From Parcubacteria group bacterium GW2011_GWB1_40_14 (GTDB lineage Bacteria; Patescibacteriota; Minisyncoccia; Terrybacterales; GWB1-40-14): DNA of 37,588 bases. The position numbers and the translations under genes were made by a program. Positions 1-6,580 of this stretch are shown one piece after another. Under the pieces are notes generated by a model. The model had not been told where the DNA came from and made no database searches. It worked only from the letters and a program-made list of their open reading frames with translations. The stretch spans positions 4,387-41,974 of the forward strand of contig LBYG01000010.1 in assembly GCA_000996085.1 (NCBI GenBank), read 5' to 3'. Numbering within the stretch: the stretch's first letter is position 1; each line of letters begins with the position of its first letter.

Positions 1-404
1 CAAAAAGAAGTTACTTGATCAAGAGTGAATTTGTTGAAGTGGGCGAGTGGAAATCGCCGCGACAGCGTAAAAGATATTTAAACAATAGCGAAGAGGACGT
101 CCAAGAGATAACTAACGCAAGTCTTTCGGCCAAAAGCGATAGGGCCAAGATTGGATATCTTCTAGCGCTGGATGGGGTTTCTTATCCCGTCGCTTCGGTC
201 ATTTTGCATTTTGCTTTCCCAGATTGTTATCCAATTCTGGATTTTAGGGCCCTGTGGTCCCTTGGTTGGGAAAAACCTTCAAGTTATAATTTCAAGTTTT
301 GGCAGAAATATTGCAGAAGAATACAGCAGTTGTCCAAAGACTTAAAGTTGTCAATTCGAATAATAGACAAGGCTCTTTGGCAATATTCCAAAGAAAATCA
401 ATAA
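1..404 (+). CDS. Partial HhH/DNA-glycosylase-like hypothetical protein (5' end outside window)
   Basis: The reading frame is open to the window edge (codons KRSY precede the TTG that the ORF track uses as start), so this is the C-terminal part of a longer gene. The stretch around LLALDGVSYPVASVILHF followed by YPILDFRALWSLGW resembles helix-hairpin-helix DNA glycosylase-fold proteins of unknown function (alpha-helical, G-V-x-x-P-V-A-S hairpin). No catalytic residue can be assigned. It ends 3 nt before the next gene, so the two are probably co-transcribed. The family call is by recognition only. Confidence 0.55.
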   Translation, partial: KRSYLIKSEFVEVGEWKSPRQRKRYLNNSEEDVQEITNASLSAKSDRAKIGYLLALDGVSYPVASVILHFAFPDCYPILDFRALWSLGWEKPSSYNFKFWQKYCRRIQQLSKDLKLSIRIIDKALWQYSKENQ

Positions 405-407
405 ATT

Positions 408-953
408 ATGGAACTTCTTAAGAAAACGGTTTTGGATTTGGAGGACAGGCGGAAGGATAATTCCGATAAAAAGGAGCTGTTTGCGAAAGACCGGCATCCC
501 AAGACGGCTAATTTTTATAAGGACCAATGGGCGTTCATTCACGACACGACGGTTCGGGAAAATATTGCCTATCAGATGCAGTATCTGGAGTTCATGATTA
601 ATCTTTATAACGATTATCAGATTTATCTCACGGTTGAGTCCTTGCTTTGCAAGGATATTATTTGTACCGTGGGCGGAATTATTGAAGCGGTTTTATTTGA
701 TTTGATTCAAAACGCAAAAGAAAAGGCCGGTCTTAAGCTTGATCGGACGGATTTTACAGCTTTATTGGGGTTGGCTTATCATGAATATAAGCTTATTGAT
801 GAAGAGATGTGGCATTTCTGTCACGAGTTGCGTAAGGTTCGAAATTTTGTTCACCTAAAAGCCGCAGACTTCAGAGAGCACCAGGCTTATTCCGCGGAAG
901 AGACAAACGATTGCCTAACCAAACTCGAACAATTCCGCGAACATCTGGCATAA
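408..953 (+). CDS. HEPN-like hypothetical protein
   Basis: A 181-residue, mostly helical protein. Near residue 145 it carries HELRKVRNFVHL, which fits the R-x(4-6)-H signature of HEPN domains with an Asn after an Arg. HEPN proteins are frequently RNases in toxin-antitoxin or defence systems, but many are not. No MNT nucleotidyltransferase partner is visible; the only upstream neighbour is the HhH-like partial gene 3 nt away. Function is therefore open. The gene ends just before the first palindromic repeat. Confidence 0.55.
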   Translation: MELLKKTVLDLEDRRKDNSDKKELFAKDRHPKTANFYKDQWAFIHDTTVRENIAYQMQYLEFMINLYNDYQIYLTVESLLCKDIICTVGGIIEAVLFDLIQNAKEKAGLKLDRTDFTALLGLAYHEYKLIDEEMWHFCHELRKVRNFVHLKAADFREHQAYSAEETNDCLTKLEQFREHLA

Positions 954-958
954 ACACA

Positions 959-990
959 ACATTCCAACATTCTTGAGAATGTCGGAATGT
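959..990 (+). repeat. Interspersed palindrome P1
   Basis: ACATTCC-a-ACATTCT-tg-AGAATGT-c-GGAATGT forms a near-perfect hairpin of about 15 bp. It is one of five family members between 959 and 2864. The loop contains TTGAGA, which sits 18 nt before GATAAA and could act as a -35 box for the mini-ORF at 1009. Confidence 0.9.
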
Positions 991-1002
991 CCAAAGGATA
1001 AA
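973..1002 (+). promoter_or_regulatory. Putative leaderless promoter formed by palindrome P1
   Basis: TTGAGA (973-978), an 18-nt spacer and GATAAA (997-1002) stand 6 nt before the ATG at 1009. The same -10-to-ATG distance is found at the arsR-type, MerR-GHKL and adk genes. Confidence 0.4.
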
Positions 1003-1008
1003 ATTTAT

Positions 1009-1074
1009 ATGACCCCATCAAATCAAAAATGTGCGCCGGGTGGAGTTTTTGGGTGGGGGAGAAATGAAGGTTAA
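1009..1074 (+). other. Mini-ORF A, repeat of the phhB start (MTPSNQKCAPGG...)
   Basis: A 21-codon ORF that begins MTPSNQKCAP. It closely matches the first codons of the pterin carbinolamine dehydratase gene at 5052 (MTLSNQKCVP) in DNA as well as protein. It then diverges into G-rich sequence resembling the promoter module at 1214. It is probably a remnant or a duplicated gene start, not a functional enzyme; a short leader peptide cannot be excluded. Confidence 0.45.
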
Positions 1075-1106
1075 TCGGCAGGAGCCCGGGCCGCCCACTC
1101 CTTATA

Positions 1107-1138
1107 ACATTCTCATATTCTGCAGAATACCAGAATGT
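1107..1138 (+). repeat. Interspersed palindrome P2 (variant with TCTGCAGA centre)
   Basis: ACATTCT-ca-TATTCTgcAGAATA-cc-AGAATGT is a hairpin of the same family as P1. The centre is different and TTGAGA is absent. It is followed by GTCC, as in P1 and P5. Confidence 0.85.
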
Positions 1139-1166
1139 CCGGGCGTTATTAAATTAGAAACTTTTT

Positions 1167-1220
1167 ATGACTCCATCAAACCAAAAATGTGCCCAGACGT
1201 TACGTCGGGGTTGTTTTTGA
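1167..1220 (+). other. Mini-ORF B, second repeat of the phhB start (MTPSNQKCAQ...)
   Basis: A 17-codon ORF, MTPSNQKCA then divergent. TAGAAA lies 6 nt before its ATG. Together with P2 it forms a tandem copy, about 150 bp later, of the P1 plus mini-ORF A unit. It ends inside the first copy of the duplicated promoter module. Confidence 0.4.
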
Positions 1221-1242
1221 TTGGGGCGGGGAGTGATAGAAT
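1214..1242 (+). promoter_or_regulatory. Promoter module, copy 1 (extended -10 TGATAGAAT)
   Basis: TTTTTGATTGGGGCGGGG followed by AGTGATAGAAT is 27/29 identical to 1675-1703. TG-A-TAGAAT is an extended -10 box; the -35 (TTTTTG at the correct spacing) is weak. It precedes the frameshifted membrane gene. Confidence 0.55.
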
Positions 1243-1258
1243 TGAATTGTGAGTAAAA

Positions 1259-1635
1259 ATGTCTTTTTTTATGTCTAATAGTTTATTGATCAAAATTGTA
1301 TACTGGCTGCCGAGGGTTTTGAGCGTGGCTTTTGTGCTGTTCTTGTCTTTGTTTTGTTCGCGCTTGATGTATTTGATTACTACAGGGGATGGGAAGTTGT
1401 TGCCGCTCTCTTTATGCATCTGTTGCCGTCTTTTGTTCTTCTGGCGGTGATTGCCGTTGCCTGGCGTTTTGAACTTGTGGGAACCGTTGTTTTTATTTCC
1501 GCTGCTTTTGGTTATATTTGGCTTGTCGGCTTTGACCGTCACTGGACGTGGTATGCTTTTATTTCCGGACCAGCATTTCTGCTCGGGATGCTCTATTTCA
1601 TAAGCTGGGCCGCAAAAAAGAAATACATAAAATAA
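1259..1635 (+). pseudogene. Frameshifted small membrane protein
   Basis: Two overlapping frames form one protein. Frame A gives MSFFMSNSLLIKIVYWLPRV... up to LSLF near 1354. Frame B continues as FALDVFDYYRGWEVVAALF through 1635, ending ISWAAKKKYIK. The joined product would be about 125 residues with roughly four membrane segments and resembles a small integral membrane family common in Parcubacteria (I recall it as DUF7670, unverified). The break is in TTTGTTTTGTTC; a missing T in the run (or a -1 slip) would restore SLFLFALDVF. It could be a true pseudogene, a homopolymer sequencing error or slippage. No canonical X-XXY-YYZ slippery heptamer is present. Confidence 0.65.
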
Positions 1636-1640
1636 TGAAC

Positions 1641-1679
1641 AGTCCAGTCCTAATTCTTAATTAGGGCTGGACTGTTTTT
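1641..1679 (+). terminator. Intrinsic terminator after the membrane pseudogene
   Basis: AGTCCAGTCCTAATT pairs with AATTAGGGCTGGACT (15 bp, one G-U), with a 3-nt loop, followed by GTTTTTG. Confidence 0.9.
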
Positions 1680-1703
1680 GGTTGGAGCGGGGAGTGATAG
1701 AAT
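1675..1703 (+). promoter_or_regulatory. Promoter module, copy 2, upstream of the AlkD-type gene
   Basis: A near-identical copy of 1214-1242 with extended -10 TGATAGAAT. It begins in the T-run of the preceding terminator and lies 14 nt before the ATG at 1718. Confidence 0.55.
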
Positions 1704-1717
1704 GAAAACGTATTTTT

Positions 1718-2440
1718 ATGCTTACCGCTAACTCTGTTATTAAAGATTTAAAAAGGAAGGGTACGGCCAAAAGAGCCAAAGCTTCCGCTTGGTTTTTTAA
1801 AACCGGAAAAGGGGATTATGGTTACGGCGACGTATTTTTTGGTGTAACAGTGCCGGAACAAAGAAAAATAGCAAAACGCTATAGCGTTTTGCCGCTTAGT
1901 GAAATAAGTAAGCTTTTAAAGAATAAAGTACACGAATGCCGCTTAACCGCGCTTTTTATTTTGGTCGGGCAATATAAACGTGCTGACGCAAAAGGAAAGG
2001 CGCGCATTGCCAAGTTTTATATTGTGAACAGAAAATACGTTAATAATTGGGATTTGGTTGATTCTTCAGCCGGGTACATTCTTGGCGATTATTTGTTGAA
2101 TAATCCGCCAGCTGGCGGAAAAAGCATTCTTTATAAGTTTGCTCGTTCAAAAAATTTATGGGAGCGCCGCATTGCGATTATTACTACGCAAGGATTTATA
2201 CGAAATAATGCCTATGCGGATACATTAAAAATCGCTAAAATTCTTCTTAACGACAAGCACGATCTTATCCATAAAGCAGTAGGCTGGATGTTGCGCGAAG
2301 TAGGGAATAGGTCTTTAGCTACCGAAGAGAAGTTTTTAAAGAAATACGCATTTAGAATGCCCCGCACTATGTTACGCTACGCAATCGAAAAGTTTCCAGA
2401 AAAAAAGCGAAAAACATATCTTTCCATCCGCCTCAAATAA
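1718..2440 (+). CDS. AlkD-type DNA alkylation repair protein
   Basis: 240 residues composed of repeated helical pairs (HEAT-like), matching the DNA alkylation repair (AlkD/AlkC) family. Recognisable segments are FFGVTVPEQRKIAKRY near residue 40, the helix NNWDLVDSSAGYILGDYL near 110, and KNLWERRIAIITTQGFIR near 145. AlkD enzymes excise positively charged alkylated bases using an aspartate in the W-D-L-V-D region, which is present here. It is monocistronic, with its own duplicated promoter. The codons for NPPAGGK lie in a perfect 16-bp palindrome (2104-2119) that looks like an in-frame insertion. Confidence 0.88.
   Translation: MLTANSVIKDLKRKGTAKRAKASAWFFKTGKGDYGYGDVFFGVTVPEQRKIAKRYSVLPLSEISKLLKNKVHECRLTALFILVGQYKRADAKGKARIAKFYIVNRKYVNNWDLVDSSAGYILGDYLLNNPPAGGKSILYKFARSKNLWERRIAIITTQGFIRNNAYADTLKIAKILLNDKHDLIHKAVGWMLREVGNRSLATEEKFLKKYAFRMPRTMLRYAIEKFPEKKRKTYLSIRLK
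2104..2119 (+). repeat. Perfect 16-bp palindrome TCCGCCAGCTGGCGGA inside alkD
   Basis: TCCGCCAG/CTGGCGGA, in frame, encoding PPAGG between two conserved helices. Related TCCGCC-loop-GGCGGA palindromes lie at 20265 and 26522. Confidence 0.7.
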
Positions 2441-2455
2441 TTCATCTTACCCAAT

Positions 2456-2494
2456 CACAACATTCCAACATTCTTGAGAATGTAAGAATGTTGT
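2456..2494 (+). repeat. Interspersed palindrome P3
   Basis: ACAACATTC pairs with GAATGTTGT, and an inner ACATTC-ttga-GAATGT hairpin completes the structure. The TTGAGA in the loop provides a -35 box for the next gene. Confidence 0.9.
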
Positions 2495-2502
2495 TGTATT
2501 GT
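2474..2502 (+). promoter_or_regulatory. Leaderless promoter of the ArsR-type gene
   Basis: TTGAGA (2474-2479, in the P3 loop), a 17-nt spacer, TATTGT (2497-2502), then 6 nt to ATG 2509. Confidence 0.6.
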
Positions 2503-2508
2503 ATTAAT

Positions 2509-2793
2509 ATGGAAAAGATCAAATCAGGTAAACAATTAGAACGTCACTTCAAGGGCATCGCCAACCACTGGAGGATAAATATATTATTGTTGGTTGGCGC
2601 CTCCGAAGGCATAACGCTTGAAGAAATGGCGGACCAACTTGGCGGGAATTTTAAAACCATTTCTGAACATACCCGAAGATTAGTCCAAGCCGGCCTTTTG
2701 AACAAAGCTTATCAGGGCAGGACAGTCCAGCATTCACTTTCGCCTTACGGCAAAAAAATCTTTACTTTCATCCGCACATTCCAACATTCTTGA
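2509..2793 (+). CDS. ArsR-like winged-helix transcriptional regulator
   Basis: A 94-residue winged-helix protein starting MEKIKSGKQLERHFKG. The HTH is ITLEEMADQLGGNFKTISEHTRRLVQAGLL, with the recognition helix at KTISEHTRRL and a wing at GRTVQHSLSPYG. No metal-binding cysteine pair is visible, so the ligand is unknown. ATG 2509 was chosen over the ORF-track start 2488 because 2488 lies inside the palindrome and upstream of the -10 box. The last residues (RTFQHS) and the stop codon are encoded by palindrome P4, suggesting that the repeat inserted at and replaced the original 3' end. Confidence 0.85.
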   Translation: MEKIKSGKQLERHFKGIANHWRINILLLVGASEGITLEEMADQLGGNFKTISEHTRRLVQAGLLNKAYQGRTVQHSLSPYGKKIFTFIRTFQHS

Positions 2794-2807
2794 GAATGTA
2801 AGAATGT
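2776..2807 (+). repeat. Interspersed palindrome P4, overlapping the 3' end of the ArsR-type gene
   Basis: ACATTC-caACATTC-ttga-GAATGTaa-GAATGT. It supplies the final codons and the TGA of the preceding gene. Confidence 0.9.
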
Positions 2808-2824
2808 TGAGCCCCGGCATCCGC

Positions 2825-2864
2825 GCATTCCAACATTCTCATATTCTGCAGAATGTCGGAATGT
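2825..2864 (+). repeat. Interspersed palindrome P5
   Basis: GCATTCCAACATTCT-CATATTCTGCAGAATG-TCGGAATGT. It combines the P1 outer arms with the P2 centre and is followed by GTCCAAAAG, as after P1. Confidence 0.85.
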
Positions 2865-2926
2865 CCAAAAGTAGAGATTTTCATGGCTATTCGGCTTCAA
2901 AATGCATACTTAGGAGCGATTAATGA

Positions 2927-2992
2927 GTAGATTACTATATTTTTGGGTAGATTATATGGCTACTTGTGTAGATTTAGATAGCATGCTATCAT
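2927..2992 (+). promoter_or_regulatory. Promoter with operator array of the MerR-GHKL gene
   Basis: Promoter TTGTGT (2964-2969), 17-nt spacer, TATCAT (2987-2992), then 6 nt to ATG, so the mRNA is probably leaderless. Three GTAGATT repeats start at 2927, 2947 and 2968, i.e. 20-21 bp apart (two helical turns). They are followed by the perfect 14-bp palindrome GATAGCATGCTATC (2977-2990), which overlaps the -10. This layout suits autoregulation by the HTH protein encoded next. Confidence 0.65.
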
Positions 2993-2998
2993 TTTTAG

Positions 2999-3718
2999 AT
3001 GGAAGAAAAGCTATTCACAATCGGCCAAGCCGCTGAATATCTTGGGGTTTCGTTAAATACACTTCGTCGTTGGGATGAAAACGGTAAGTTAGTGGCGATT
3101 AGAAAAGACGGTGGCACCCATCGATATTATCGCCAGCAGGACTTAGATTTATTTGCGAGCAATTTAATTAAGCTTGCTCATGACTGGACGACAGACGGAT
3201 CTGAATTGCCGGCTATGTTCTATTGTGCCAATAGCGCAGTTTTTCAAGCCAGACTTATTAAAATGCAGGACACTCTGGTACGATCCGGTCTTTCTGAAAA
3301 TCTGGTGCCTCTTATTGTTTCCGTTGCGGGCGAAATTGGCAATAACTCTTTCGATCATAACCTTGGCAAATGGCCGGATATTCCAGGTGTATTTTTCGGT
3401 TATGACGTCACTAAGAGGCAAGTTGTGCTTGCAGATCGTGGGCTTGGTATTTTAAGTACGCTTAGTCGTGTGCGTCCAGAGCTTAAAACTCACGTTGATG
3501 CGTTAAGAGTAGCATTCACGGAAGTTGTTTCCGGTCGGGCGCCTGAAGCGCGCGGTAACGGGCTCAAATTTGTTAGGAGGGTTGTTGCCGAGAATCCCGT
3601 CAGTTTATTTTTTCGGAGCGGTGACGCTGAGTTACGTCTTAAAAAAGATAACAATGAACTTTTTATCACGCGGTCGCAGAGTATTACCCGCGGATGCTTT
3701 GCGGTTATTGAATATTAA
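2999..3718 (+). CDS. MerR-type HTH fused to a GHKL (HATPase) domain
   Basis: 239 residues. Residues 5-50 are a MerR/excisionase HTH (FTIGQAAEYLGVSLNTLRRWDENGKL, then THRYYRQQDL). The rest carries GHKL ATPase boxes: an N-box-like GEIGNNSFDHN (111-121), DRGLGI (146-151, G1) and ARGNGLKFV (184-192, G2). No histidine-kinase phosphoacceptor domain or membrane segment is seen, so this is a cytosolic DNA-binding ATPase/switch. It is followed 29 nt later by a STAS-like protein, a pairing that recalls anti-sigma-kinase/antagonist partner switching. Function is inferred; the domain calls are from visible motifs. Confidence 0.8.
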   Translation: MEEKLFTIGQAAEYLGVSLNTLRRWDENGKLVAIRKDGGTHRYYRQQDLDLFASNLIKLAHDWTTDGSELPAMFYCANSAVFQARLIKMQDTLVRSGLSENLVPLIVSVAGEIGNNSFDHNLGKWPDIPGVFFGYDVTKRQVVLADRGLGILSTLSRVRPELKTHVDALRVAFTEVVSGRAPEARGNGLKFVRRVVAENPVSLFFRSGDAELRLKKDNNELFITRSQSITRGCFAVIEY

Positions 3719-3747
3719 AAAAAATATATTATTAATTCCCTTATACT

Positions 3748-4041
3748 ATGCGTATTGAATTAAAAAAATTTGGAACAACATTAATTTCTCGGCAGTCGGG
3801 CAAGGAGGCATTTGCAGCGCTTCAATCAACTGTCATCGATATCGCAGTAGATGAAATTATTGAGATAGATTTTGAAGGTGTTATAACATTCTCTCCGTCT
3901 TGGGGGGACGAGTTCCTAACGCCACTACTTAACCAATTCGGTGATCGGTTGGTTTTGCTCCCTACGAGTAATCCATCGGTAAAAATTACAATCAAGCTCC
4001 TCGAGGAGATCAATAAGGAGAGTTTTAAGGCAAAGTCATAG
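3748..4041 (+). CDS. STAS-like (DUF4325-type) protein
   Basis: 97 residues. IEIDFEGVITFSPSWGDEFLTPLLNQFGDRLVLL matches STAS-like DUF4325 proteins (strand D-F-x-G-V followed by S-P-S-x-x-D-E-F-L). It lacks the Ser-rich phosphorylation loop of classical SpoIIAA, although FSPSWGDEF occupies that position. It lies directly downstream of the HTH-GHKL protein and is probably its partner, acting as substrate or antagonist. No separate promoter is convincing: TATACT touches the ATG and is too close. Confidence 0.75.
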   Translation: MRIELKKFGTTLISRQSGKEAFAALQSTVIDIAVDEIIEIDFEGVITFSPSWGDEFLTPLLNQFGDRLVLLPTSNPSVKITIKLLEEINKESFKAKS

Positions 4042-4072
4042 CGTCTGTTTTAGCAATGGAAGAAAAATCTTT

Positions 4073-4132
4073 ATGAATCTATCAGATCAAAAATGCGCTG
4101 CGCTGATGAGAAATAGCACAAATTATATATGA
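4073..4132 (+). other. Mini-ORF C (MNLSDQKCAALM...), coupled to the rhodanese gene
   Basis: A 19-codon ORF whose start resembles that of phhB (MTLSNQKCVP). Its TGA stop overlaps the rhodanese ATG in an ATGA arrangement, so translation could be coupled. It may be a short upstream ORF or the decayed start of a dehydratase copy. Confidence 0.4.
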
Positions 4133-4572
4133 GAAATAAAATTTTTATATTGAGCATAATCACCCTTGTTATTTCGGGCGCGGTATTTTATACGGCAAAG
4201 AAAGAAGAGCCCGTCAGAGAGGACAGTAAACAAACAGTTCAGGAATACACTTCAATTTCTTCAGACGAATTGGAATCCATGCTTGCGGACAAAGATTTTA
4301 TATTTATTGATGTGCATACGCCTGAGCAGGAACATATTGCGGGAACTGATTTTGTTATTCCTTTTGATCAGACTCAAAAAATAACTTCGGTATTAAATAA
4401 TAAAAATACAAAAGTTGTACTTTATTGCCGGTCGGGTTCCATGAGTAAAATTGCGGCACAAACTCTTACAGATATGGGATATTCAAATGTTTATGAATTG
4501 ATCGGGGGACTGCACGATTGGATCTCTCGAGGAAGAAAAACTGTGCCGATCGGAAGCATTCCAACTCCGTAA
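4129..4572 (+). CDS. Membrane-anchored rhodanese-domain protein
   Basis: 147 residues. An N-terminal signal anchor (IFILSIITLVISGAVFY, no lipobox Cys) is followed by a single rhodanese domain, SSDELESMLADKDFIFIDVHTPEQEHIAGT. The active-site loop is CRSGSMS with Cys100. Rhodaneses transfer sulfane sulfur; the domain should lie outside the cytoplasmic membrane. The start overlaps the stop of mini-ORF C, and the next gene begins 1 nt after its stop. Confidence 0.88.
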   Translation: MRNKIFILSIITLVISGAVFYTAKKEEPVREDSKQTVQEYTSISSDELESMLADKDFIFIDVHTPEQEHIAGTDFVIPFDQTQKITSVLNNKNTKVVLYCRSGSMSKIAAQTLTDMGYSNVYELIGGLHDWISRGRKTVPIGSIPTP

Positions 4573-4573
4573 G

Positions 4574-5035
4574 ATGACAAATAATAAAAAGGCACAAAAA
4601 ATTAAATTGGATAAGAAAGATCATAAGGCGCTGGTATTATGGGCTGCGGATTGCGCTGAGCACGTACTTCCATATTTTGAAAAAGAATATCCCAAAGACA
4701 ATAGACCCCGTAAAGCTATTGAAGAGGCGCGCTCTTGGGCGCGAGGGGATGAGCCAATGAAAATGAGCGTGATTCGTTCTGCCGCACTTGCCGCGCACGC
4801 TGCTGCTCGTGCTACCGAAAATCCTGCGGCTCGCGCTGCTGCGCGCGCAGCAGGTCAGGCTGTCGCAACAGTTCATGTTGCCGGCCATGCCGGCGCTGTT
4901 GTTTACTACATCAACAAAGTAGTTGAGGCCGTCCTGGCCGGACAGGTAAATATTGCCCGGGAACGCGCGTGGCTCCGCCGTAAATTAGCAGATGAACGTT
5001 TTCAAAAACATCTTCGTTCAATAGTATTAAAATAA
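4574..5035 (+). CDS. Immunity-like alanine-rich protein
   Basis: 153 residues. The pattern DHKALVLWAADCAEHVLPYFE, then RKAIEEARSWARGDEP, an Ala-rich AAHAAARATENPAARAAARAAGQAVATVHVAGHAG, and a C-terminal R-K-L-x-D-E-R-F matches a family annotated as putative immunity protein. No toxin gene is adjacent, so the role is uncertain. Its start is 1 nt after the rhodanese stop, consistent with an operon. Confidence 0.6.
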   Translation: MTNNKKAQKIKLDKKDHKALVLWAADCAEHVLPYFEKEYPKDNRPRKAIEEARSWARGDEPMKMSVIRSAALAAHAAARATENPAARAAARAAGQAVATVHVAGHAGAVVYYINKVVEAVLAGQVNIARERAWLRRKLADERFQKHLRSIVLK

Positions 5036-5051
5036 TGATAAAATAAATTTT

Positions 5052-5372
5052 ATGACCCTTTCTAATCAAAAATGTGTACCGTGCGAAGGCGGAACTTTGC
5101 CTATGATGTTGAAAGAAGCGCAAAAATATCTTGCCGACCTTCCGGGCTGGGAATACAAAAGTGATCGCATAGCAAAAAACTATAAATTTAAAAATTTTGT
5201 TGAAACAATGGAATTTGTGAATAAAGTCGCAGCACTCGCTGAGGAACAAGGCCATCATCCCAATATTTCTATTGTTTATAATAAGGTAACTTTGGAGCTT
5301 TCAACGCACGCCATTGGCGGGTTATCCATTAACGATTTCATCATGGCTACCAAAATAGAGGAGATAAAATAA
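5052..5372 (+). CDS. phhB: Pterin-4a-carbinolamine dehydratase
   Basis: 106 residues, full length for the family. The C-terminal EEQGHHPNISIVYNKVTLELSTHAIGGLSINDF holds the catalytic His pair (H68, H69) and a third histidine (H86). The N-terminal MTLSNQKCVPCEGGTLP is typical of CPR members. It dehydrates 4a-hydroxytetrahydropterin, but no aromatic amino acid hydroxylase is present nearby, so the physiological substrate is unclear. TAAAAT lies 7 nt before the ATG. Copies of its first codons recur at 1009, 1167 and 4073. Confidence 0.92.
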   Translation: MTLSNQKCVPCEGGTLPMMLKEAQKYLADLPGWEYKSDRIAKNYKFKNFVETMEFVNKVAALAEEQGHHPNISIVYNKVTLELSTHAIGGLSINDFIMATKIEEIK

Positions 5373-5375
5373 TCT

Positions 5376-5873
5376 ATGAAAACCATTGTTGCTATTTTGG
5401 TCGCAATATATTTTATCTGGGCAGCGGCGCATCCGGTCGATTGGCGGTTCATAGATAATGCAAATCTGGCAATACATGAAGCCGGACATCTGGTGTTTAC
5501 GCCTTTTGGAGAGTTCATTAGCATTGCCGGCGGAACAGCGCTCCAATTGTTGGTGCCCGCACTTTGTATAATTTATTTTTTATTCCGCCGAGAATATTTT
5601 TCTTCAAGCCTTCTTTTATTTTGGCTTGGTGAAAATTTCTTAAATGTTTCTGTGTATGCCGCAGACGCGAAGAATATGAGCCTTAATCTTGTTTTTGGGG
5701 GCATACACGACTGGAATTATTTACTTATACATTTGGGCTTGATCGATAATGCTGAAACCGTGGGACAGATAATCCGTATCACAGGAATACTGATCATTAT
5801 AGCCGCTTCATTTTTGTCTATACTTACGTCGCGCGATTGGCGAAGCGCTCAGACGATGCATATAACTAAATAA
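5376..5873 (+). CDS. Integral membrane protein with HEAGH motif
   Basis: 165 residues with about four membrane segments. NLAIHEAGHLVFTPFGEF contains HEAGH, an HExxH zinc-binding motif, next to a hydrophobic stretch. A later FWLGENFLNVSVYAADA could supply the third ligand (the Asp). This is compatible with a small M50-like membrane metalloprotease, but the sequence is not clearly any characterised family. It starts 3 nt after phhB. Confidence 0.6.
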   Translation: MKTIVAILVAIYFIWAAAHPVDWRFIDNANLAIHEAGHLVFTPFGEFISIAGGTALQLLVPALCIIYFLFRREYFSSSLLLFWLGENFLNVSVYAADAKNMSLNLVFGGIHDWNYLLIHLGLIDNAETVGQIIRITGILIIIAASFLSILTSRDWRSAQTMHITK

Positions 5874-5875
5874 CA

Positions 5876-5907
5876 AAAACGCTCTGACTAATCAGGGCAT
5901 TTTTGTT
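5876..5907 (+). terminator. Intrinsic terminator
   Basis: AAAAAC-GCTCTGA-ctaa-TCAGGGC-ATTTTTGTTT: a 7-bp core with one G-U, flanked by A/T runs. Confidence 0.8.
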
Positions 5908-5959
5908 TGAAGGTATTAGTATTTTGGTTATTTTTGGGTTATAAAGAATTGATAATTTT

Positions 5960-6580
5960 ATGGATTACTCGTCTATAAATAAAAAAACATACGATAATTT
6001 AGCGCAAGAATACGAGGAACGGGTAGAGAGTTTAATGCCGGTAACAAAGGCTGCTATGGATTATTTTGCCTCATATATAAAGCCCAAAGGCCGTGTTTTG
6101 GATATCGGCTGCGCGGTGGGTATTGCGGTCAGTGTTTTGACAGAAAAGGGTTTTGAAGTTTGCGGAATAGATATATCTGAGTCGATGACAGGGTTTGCCA
6201 AAAAGAGAAATCCGAACTCAAAAATCATAACAGGAGATTTTTTAGAAACAGAATTTGAAGAAAAATTCGATGCCGTGCTTGCTTTTGCTTTTATACATCT
6301 TTTCCCAAAAAAAGAAGTTTTAAGGATAATAGATAAGATAAGCGCGGTTTTAAACAGCGGCGGAGTCGCGTTGTTGAGCTCCACGGAATCTGAAGAAAGT
6401 AAAGAAGGTTGGTATGTTAAAGATGATTTTAATAAAAAGGAAAAGCGATTCCGTAAATTTTGGACCGAAGAAGAGTTACGAGCCACAATACAGCAGGCCG
6501 GTTTTGAAGTTATAGACCTTAAGAAATTCCCTGATCCTTTCGGTAAAACCTGGATGGATTTTATAGCGAGAAAAATATAA
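5960..6580 (+). CDS. Class I SAM-dependent methyltransferase
   Basis: 206 residues. Motif I is VLDIGCAVGIAVSVL (from about residue 45), followed by the acidic loop CGIDIS, TGDFLE, and the post-motif DAVLAFAFIHLFPKKE. This is a Rossmann methyltransferase of the ubiquinone/menaquinone-like type; the substrate is unknown. It is followed 3 nt later by the flavoprotein gene, so the two are probably co-transcribed. Confidence 0.88.
   Translation: MDYSSINKKTYDNLAQEYEERVESLMPVTKAAMDYFASYIKPKGRVLDIGCAVGIAVSVLTEKGFEVCGIDISESMTGFAKKRNPNSKIITGDFLETEFEEKFDAVLAFAFIHLFPKKEVLRIIDKISAVLNSGGVALLSSTESEESKEGWYVKDDFNKKEKRFRKFWTEEELRATIQQAGFEVIDLKKFPDPFGKTWMDFIARKI

Follow-up and report, generated by a model that had tools for sequence, protein, structure and literature searches.

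A dispersed palindromic repeat and its putative cognate ArsR-fold regulator: a candidate minimal mobile DNA family of Patescibacteria

Introduction

Why should less than 2 kb of a bacterial genome hold five copies of one palindrome, two of them placed at either end of the gene for a DNA-binding protein? The question is raised by a stretch of 37,588 nucleotides, hereafter the window, from contig C10 of a Patescibacteria genome of 944 kb. In the first-pass annotation, the copies had been read as portable regulatory and gene-end modules. Here we describe the palindromes of the window, the ArsR-fold wHTH protein encoded between two of them, and the distribution of both across related genomes.

Results

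All five ATTC/GAAT palindromes that had been claimed for positions 959 to 2864 were found, each on the forward strand (P1, 959-990; P2, 1107-1138; P3, 2460-2491; P4, 2776-2807; P5, 2825-2864). Their building blocks are 8-bp half units (ACATTCNN ... NNGAATGT), five of which, three forward and two reverse, make up P5. As likewise claimed, two centre types occur: P1, P3 and P4 carry TTGA, while P2 and P5 are of a TGCA type with the centre sequence TCTGCAGA. The full pattern is present six times in the 944 kb genome, five times in the window and once on another contig (C5:23944-23971), and the reversed control pattern had no match in this or any other genome tested. The five palindromes are genuine, and their number far exceeds what chance would give.

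P3 and P4 lie at the two ends of the wHTH gene, which is encoded on the forward strand (2509-2793; 94 aa). The list of open reading frames (ORFs) places its start at 2488, but homology favours 2509. P4 overlaps the end of the gene and supplies its stop codon (TGA, 2791-2793, forward strand), in line with the earlier claim, and the same arrangement was seen in dozens of homologous loci. In Pfam the protein matched HTH_20 and MarR below the cut-off. Its predicted structure (AlphaFold, AF2; pLDDT 91.6), the closest solved folds (CadC, SmtB, HlyU and CzrA; Foldseek TM ~0.8; 1u2w, 8qkf, 4k2e) and a phmmer match (6j0e, E=5e-6) place it in the ArsR winged-helix fold, with a predicted recognition helix at residues 48-60. 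The 94 residues include no cysteine for metal or thiol sensing.

P1 and P2 lie next to fragments of another gene. A 42-nt repeat that matches the pterin-dehydratase gene (5052-5372) at its start occurs four times, and three of the four copies lack the remainder of the gene. Two of these are truncated gene starts on the forward strand, directly 3' of P1 (993-1034; MTPSNQKC) and of P2 (1151-1192); the other two copies are at 4057-4098 and 5036-5077. Elsewhere in this part of the window, positions 1638-1676 hold a hairpin (AACAGTCCAGTCC...GGGCTGGACTGTT) that resembles a terminator and has T's after it; similar hairpins occur on contigs C8 and C27 and in genome G027. P5 is directly followed by the gene for a MerR-type HTH protein (2999-4041) whose C-terminal half is ATPase-like by eye, and then by one for a STAS-like DUF4325 protein; a putative Imm-5-like immunity protein (PF21805) is encoded at 4574-5035. 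No known RNA family was detected in positions 1-6000 of the window.

P3 provides the -35 box of the wHTH gene. Its TTGAGA (2474-2479) is followed after 17 nt by a -10 box, TATTGT (2497-2502), which in turn lies 6 nt before the ATG, a leaderless start, all on the forward strand. The first-pass annotation had proposed a promoter of this kind for P1 as well as for P3. The claim stands for P3 and is weaker for P1, where TTGAGA (973-978) is followed after 18 nt by GATAAA (997-1002) and by ATG (1009-1011): this -10 is a poor match (4/6), and the ORF downstream is a copy of the start of the gene at 5052, truncated after about 20 codons and not intact. In loci homologous to that of P3 the spacing is conserved, with the -35 contributed by the upstream palindrome being TTGAGA for TTGA types and TTGGAA, from the right arm, for TGCA types. 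Among 30 copies upstream of a wHTH gene, 20 had a -10 after 16-18 nt (4.3 expected) and 18 had a -10 together with a start codon another 3-11 nt downstream (1.6 expected). For solitary intergenic copies, no excess was seen in 137 orientations, neither for a -10 at the right spacing (17 vs 17.2 expected) nor for a -10 with a start codon (6 vs 6.6 expected). Most copies lack a downstream -10 and ATG, which is the outcome that the first-pass annotation had named as refuting its reading. Enrichment is confined to the wHTH-upstream copies, and a promoter module common to all copies was rejected on these spacing statistics. From the geometry and from the covariation described below we infer, with good support, that the upstream copy serves as promoter and operator of the wHTH gene, which would thus be autoregulated.

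Most of the 60 unique wHTH matches have a palindrome on both sides, one upstream and one at or just 3' of the stop codon, and in most loci the two are spaced 275-320 bp apart. In the loci examined, no other gene was recurrently flanked by palindromes and no recurrently linked mobilising gene was found beside them. The commonest candidate neighbour is an ORF for a DUF559-like, Vsr-type nuclease (named by eye), which adjoins the wHTH gene in four loci. On one contig of another genome, a segment beside a wHTH palindrome is duplicated ~4 kb away, palindrome included, in pieces that are 87-91% identical.

Protein and site vary together. The centres upstream and downstream of the wHTH gene were TGCA/TGCA in 15 cases, TTGA/TTGA in 14 and variant/variant in six, the rest being mixes of TTAA, TCGA, TATA and TGGA; a mixed TGCA/TTGA pair was never found around one wHTH gene. 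Residue 57, within the predicted recognition helix, is arginine in 19 of 23 TTGA-type proteins and in none of the 18 of TGCA type (p=5e-8, kinship ignored), and a residue other than arginine mostly goes with a TGCA centre. Proteins with GEHTRRLYQ form a variant group whose genes are flanked at both ends by a variant palindrome, ACATCCTTACAAACTTGAG, and two proteins with NISQHTRRL have TATA/TTAA centres. With sites transcribed by hand, flanking copies counted and kinship ignored, 43 of 45 palindromes in 13 genomes matched the type of the resident wHTH. Only P2 and P5 of the window did not match. Operators beside the wHTH gene of another locus share the right half of P2, TGCAGAATACCAGAAT, and a wHTH of that type was not found in the window's genome. 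Together, these data give good support to the view that the wHTH family has the palindrome as its cognate site, which the protein would be expected to bind.

The exact 28-nt pattern was present in 77 of 384 genomes of the window's class (reversed control, 0), in 11 genomes outside the class in a phylum-wide draw, and at no fewer than 115 loci of the genome collection, mostly named Parcubacteria-group. The family is spread through many of the tiny, uncultured Patescibacteria, mainly those of the window's class. Matches at six loci fall in metagenome-assembled genomes (MAGs) labelled Verrucomicrobia, Kiritimatiellaeota/Kiritimatiellae or Omnitrophota, perhaps through misbinning or transfer. Genomes carry few copies (1 to about 13 each), and the palindromes measure about 32-38 bp. 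In solitary copies, the variable position pairs 7/26 and 8/25, and the two bases that adjoin the 32-mer on its outer side, are complementary far more often than in shuffles (z 5 to 9), which suggests that the symmetry itself is maintained, or that it is copied as a unit. Palindrome and wHTH co-occur in 50 genomes of the class (odds ratio 15, p=2e-21), an association that persists in genomes with and without Y1 transposases; no wHTH was detected in 27 of the 77 palindrome genomes, and of the 83 wHTH genomes 33 are without an exact match to the pattern, several of these having variant palindromes. A phage or plasmid origin was rejected, as the exact pattern had no match in viral contigs, no wHTH was found in phages, and plasmids yielded two weak ArsR matches.

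Sites away from wHTH genes are unevenly distributed with respect to gene orientation. Against expectations derived from intergenic length and based on crude ORF calls, 44 were tandem (47.7 expected), 24 convergent (13.2) and 5 divergent (12.1; p=0.001). At least 20 copies lie within long ORFs that read as conserved proteins, namely TsaD and YchF (three each), PGK, TrmD, MnmA, MurC, MurD, PurL, 6PGD (gnd), MetK, TspO and Tgt; PGK, TsaD, TrmD, 6PGD and YchF were confirmed against solved structures and the others were named by eye. One reading frame is strongly preferred, 21 of 24 in-gene copies being translated as xHSNIL(E/Q/K)NVGM (p=6e-8). Aligned to solved structures, the insert opens a gap of 10 residues in 6PGD and one of 11 residues in TrmD; the excess in PGK is less sharp, and the YchF palindrome adds no net length.

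At the metK and tspO sites, relatives lack the palindrome and the net difference is 9-21 bp. This is less than the length of the palindrome, so that native loop bases must differ or have been lost as well. The comparison, made for metK and tspO with other genera only, shows gain or loss rather than clean insertion, and neither a clean empty site nor a target-site duplication was found. Palindromes at the same place in the same gene were seen in different lineages, three for ychF and two for tspO; such copies may have been inherited, or may favour the site, instead of having inserted at random. All-against-all BLAST of the palindrome flanks returned mostly self-matches of the wHTH. Dispersal of the copies at the DNA level is well supported by the sequence data. 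Since a -10 with ATG is no commoner than expected after solitary copies, and since these are scarce between divergent genes and also lie within coding genes, the term portable promoter can apply only to the operator of the regulator; the in-gene copies and the divergent depletion argue instead for inserted palindromes. What stands of the portable regulatory and gene-end modules originally proposed is the wHTH's own operator and its stop-codon copy, not the solitary copies.

Discussion

We consider it probable that the palindromes are at once cognate sites of an ArsR-fold wHTH and a palindromic repeat of Patescibacteria that is mobile, selfish and minimal. At its core is a unit of palindrome, wHTH gene and palindrome. 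A wHTH dimer would occupy the upstream copy, over the -35 of the leaderless promoter; because of this overlap, the bound dimer would repress its own gene. The downstream copy overlaps or closely trails the stop codon. Single palindromes have spread, perhaps recently, and now occupy intergenic positions as well as protein-coding genes, in which they are read in frame. A further step, that this is a minimal mobile-element family with an ArsR-type DNA-binding regulator as its sole encoded protein, and that the wHTH not only represses itself but also helps to disperse the palindromes, with its own operator as the mobile unit and catalysis by a host or third-party enzyme, is conceivable and we put it forward tentatively, as rather doubtful.

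It seems unlikely that all copies are ordinary operators of an ArsR-type factor that autoregulates and controls a small regulon, for instance of neighbouring stress or repair genes. Such a regulon would account for the covariation of protein and site, the promoter geometry conserved among upstream copies and the match of sites to the resident wHTH type, and TspO is indeed encoded downstream of the wHTH in four loci. It does not fit the solitary copies, which have no excess of -10/ATG and avoid divergent genes, nor the copies within housekeeping genes in one preferred frame, nor the palindromes in genomes without a wHTH match. Bidirectional transcription terminators sharing their sequence by coincidence could explain the enrichment between convergent genes and the AAAC...GTTT edges of many copies. 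We regard this reading as very improbable, as it leaves unexplained the in-frame copies in essential genes, the covariation with the recognition helix and the near-identical sequence across many lineages.

Quite improbable, too, is the view of the palindromes as REP sequences that a Y1 tyrosine transposase (RAYT/TnpA_REP) encoded in the same genomes mobilises, the wHTH being an unrelated passenger. The palindromes do resemble REPs, and Y1_Tnp proteins are encoded in 232 of the 384 genomes of the class. Yet the association between palindrome and Y1 is weak (odds ratio 1.7, p=0.07), whereas that with the wHTH is strong whether or not Y1 is present, and 23 palindrome genomes, including that of the window, have no Y1 match. 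Moreover, no Y1 gene was seen to be recurrently flanked by palindromes, and the outer ends are A/T-rich with no GTAG head obvious by eye.

The palindromes, on the preferred reading a selfish repeat paired with its own binding protein, offer a family with an obvious cognate protein and a natural specificity series (TTGA, TGCA, TATA/TTAA, ACATCC) tied to the recognition helix, above all to one of its residues, so that binding, specificity and perhaps movement can be tested with short DNA and a 94-aa protein. No description of the palindrome-wHTH system was found in the literature searched, in which subscription journals were poorly covered. Our data suggest a very small family of mobile DNA, apparently undescribed, that comes with a regulator of its own.

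The protein resembles the ArsR/SmtB autorepressors (CadC, SmtB, CzrA, HlyU) in its fold and in having a site over the promoter of its own gene. It differs from them in the second site at the stop codon, in the dispersed copies inside genes and in the lack of a cysteine for a thiolate metal site. The overlap with the stop codon also prompted a comparison with integron attC-like sites and cassettes, which was dropped as no GTTRRRY core was seen by eye.

REP/RAYT (TnpA_REP) systems share with the palindromes a gene placed between two copies, covariation of protein and palindrome, and extra copies that are dispersed or clustered close to the gene (PMC2817692). Here, in contrast, the partner is an ArsR-fold wHTH without HUH nuclease or catalytic domain, and the palindromes are A/T-rich, low in copy number and present inside coding genes. 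Two-copy flanking with covariation is found in both, but a Y1 (HUH) partner is not: Y1 transposase PF01797 has no match in the window's genome and the association in the class is weak, on which grounds membership was rejected. By eye, no GT(A/G)G head like that of REPs was seen; the outer positions mostly read AAC...GTT. The palindromic repeats of Rickettsia (RPE, 105-146 bp; Ogata et al. 2000, as reviewed in PMC2229807) likewise occupy intergenic sites and, in frame, the genes of conserved proteins, and their mobilising enzyme is likewise unnamed (PMC2229807). Palindromes inside essential genes are thus already known from Rickettsia, where a mobilising partner has not been identified. The palindromes described here also lie in frame, with one frame preferred, within conserved genes, but are about 32-38 bp long, belong to Patescibacteria and flank a wHTH gene. 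The palindrome system behaves like both RPE and RAYT/REP and is a member of neither, being set apart from the former by size and host and from the latter by its non-Y1 partner.
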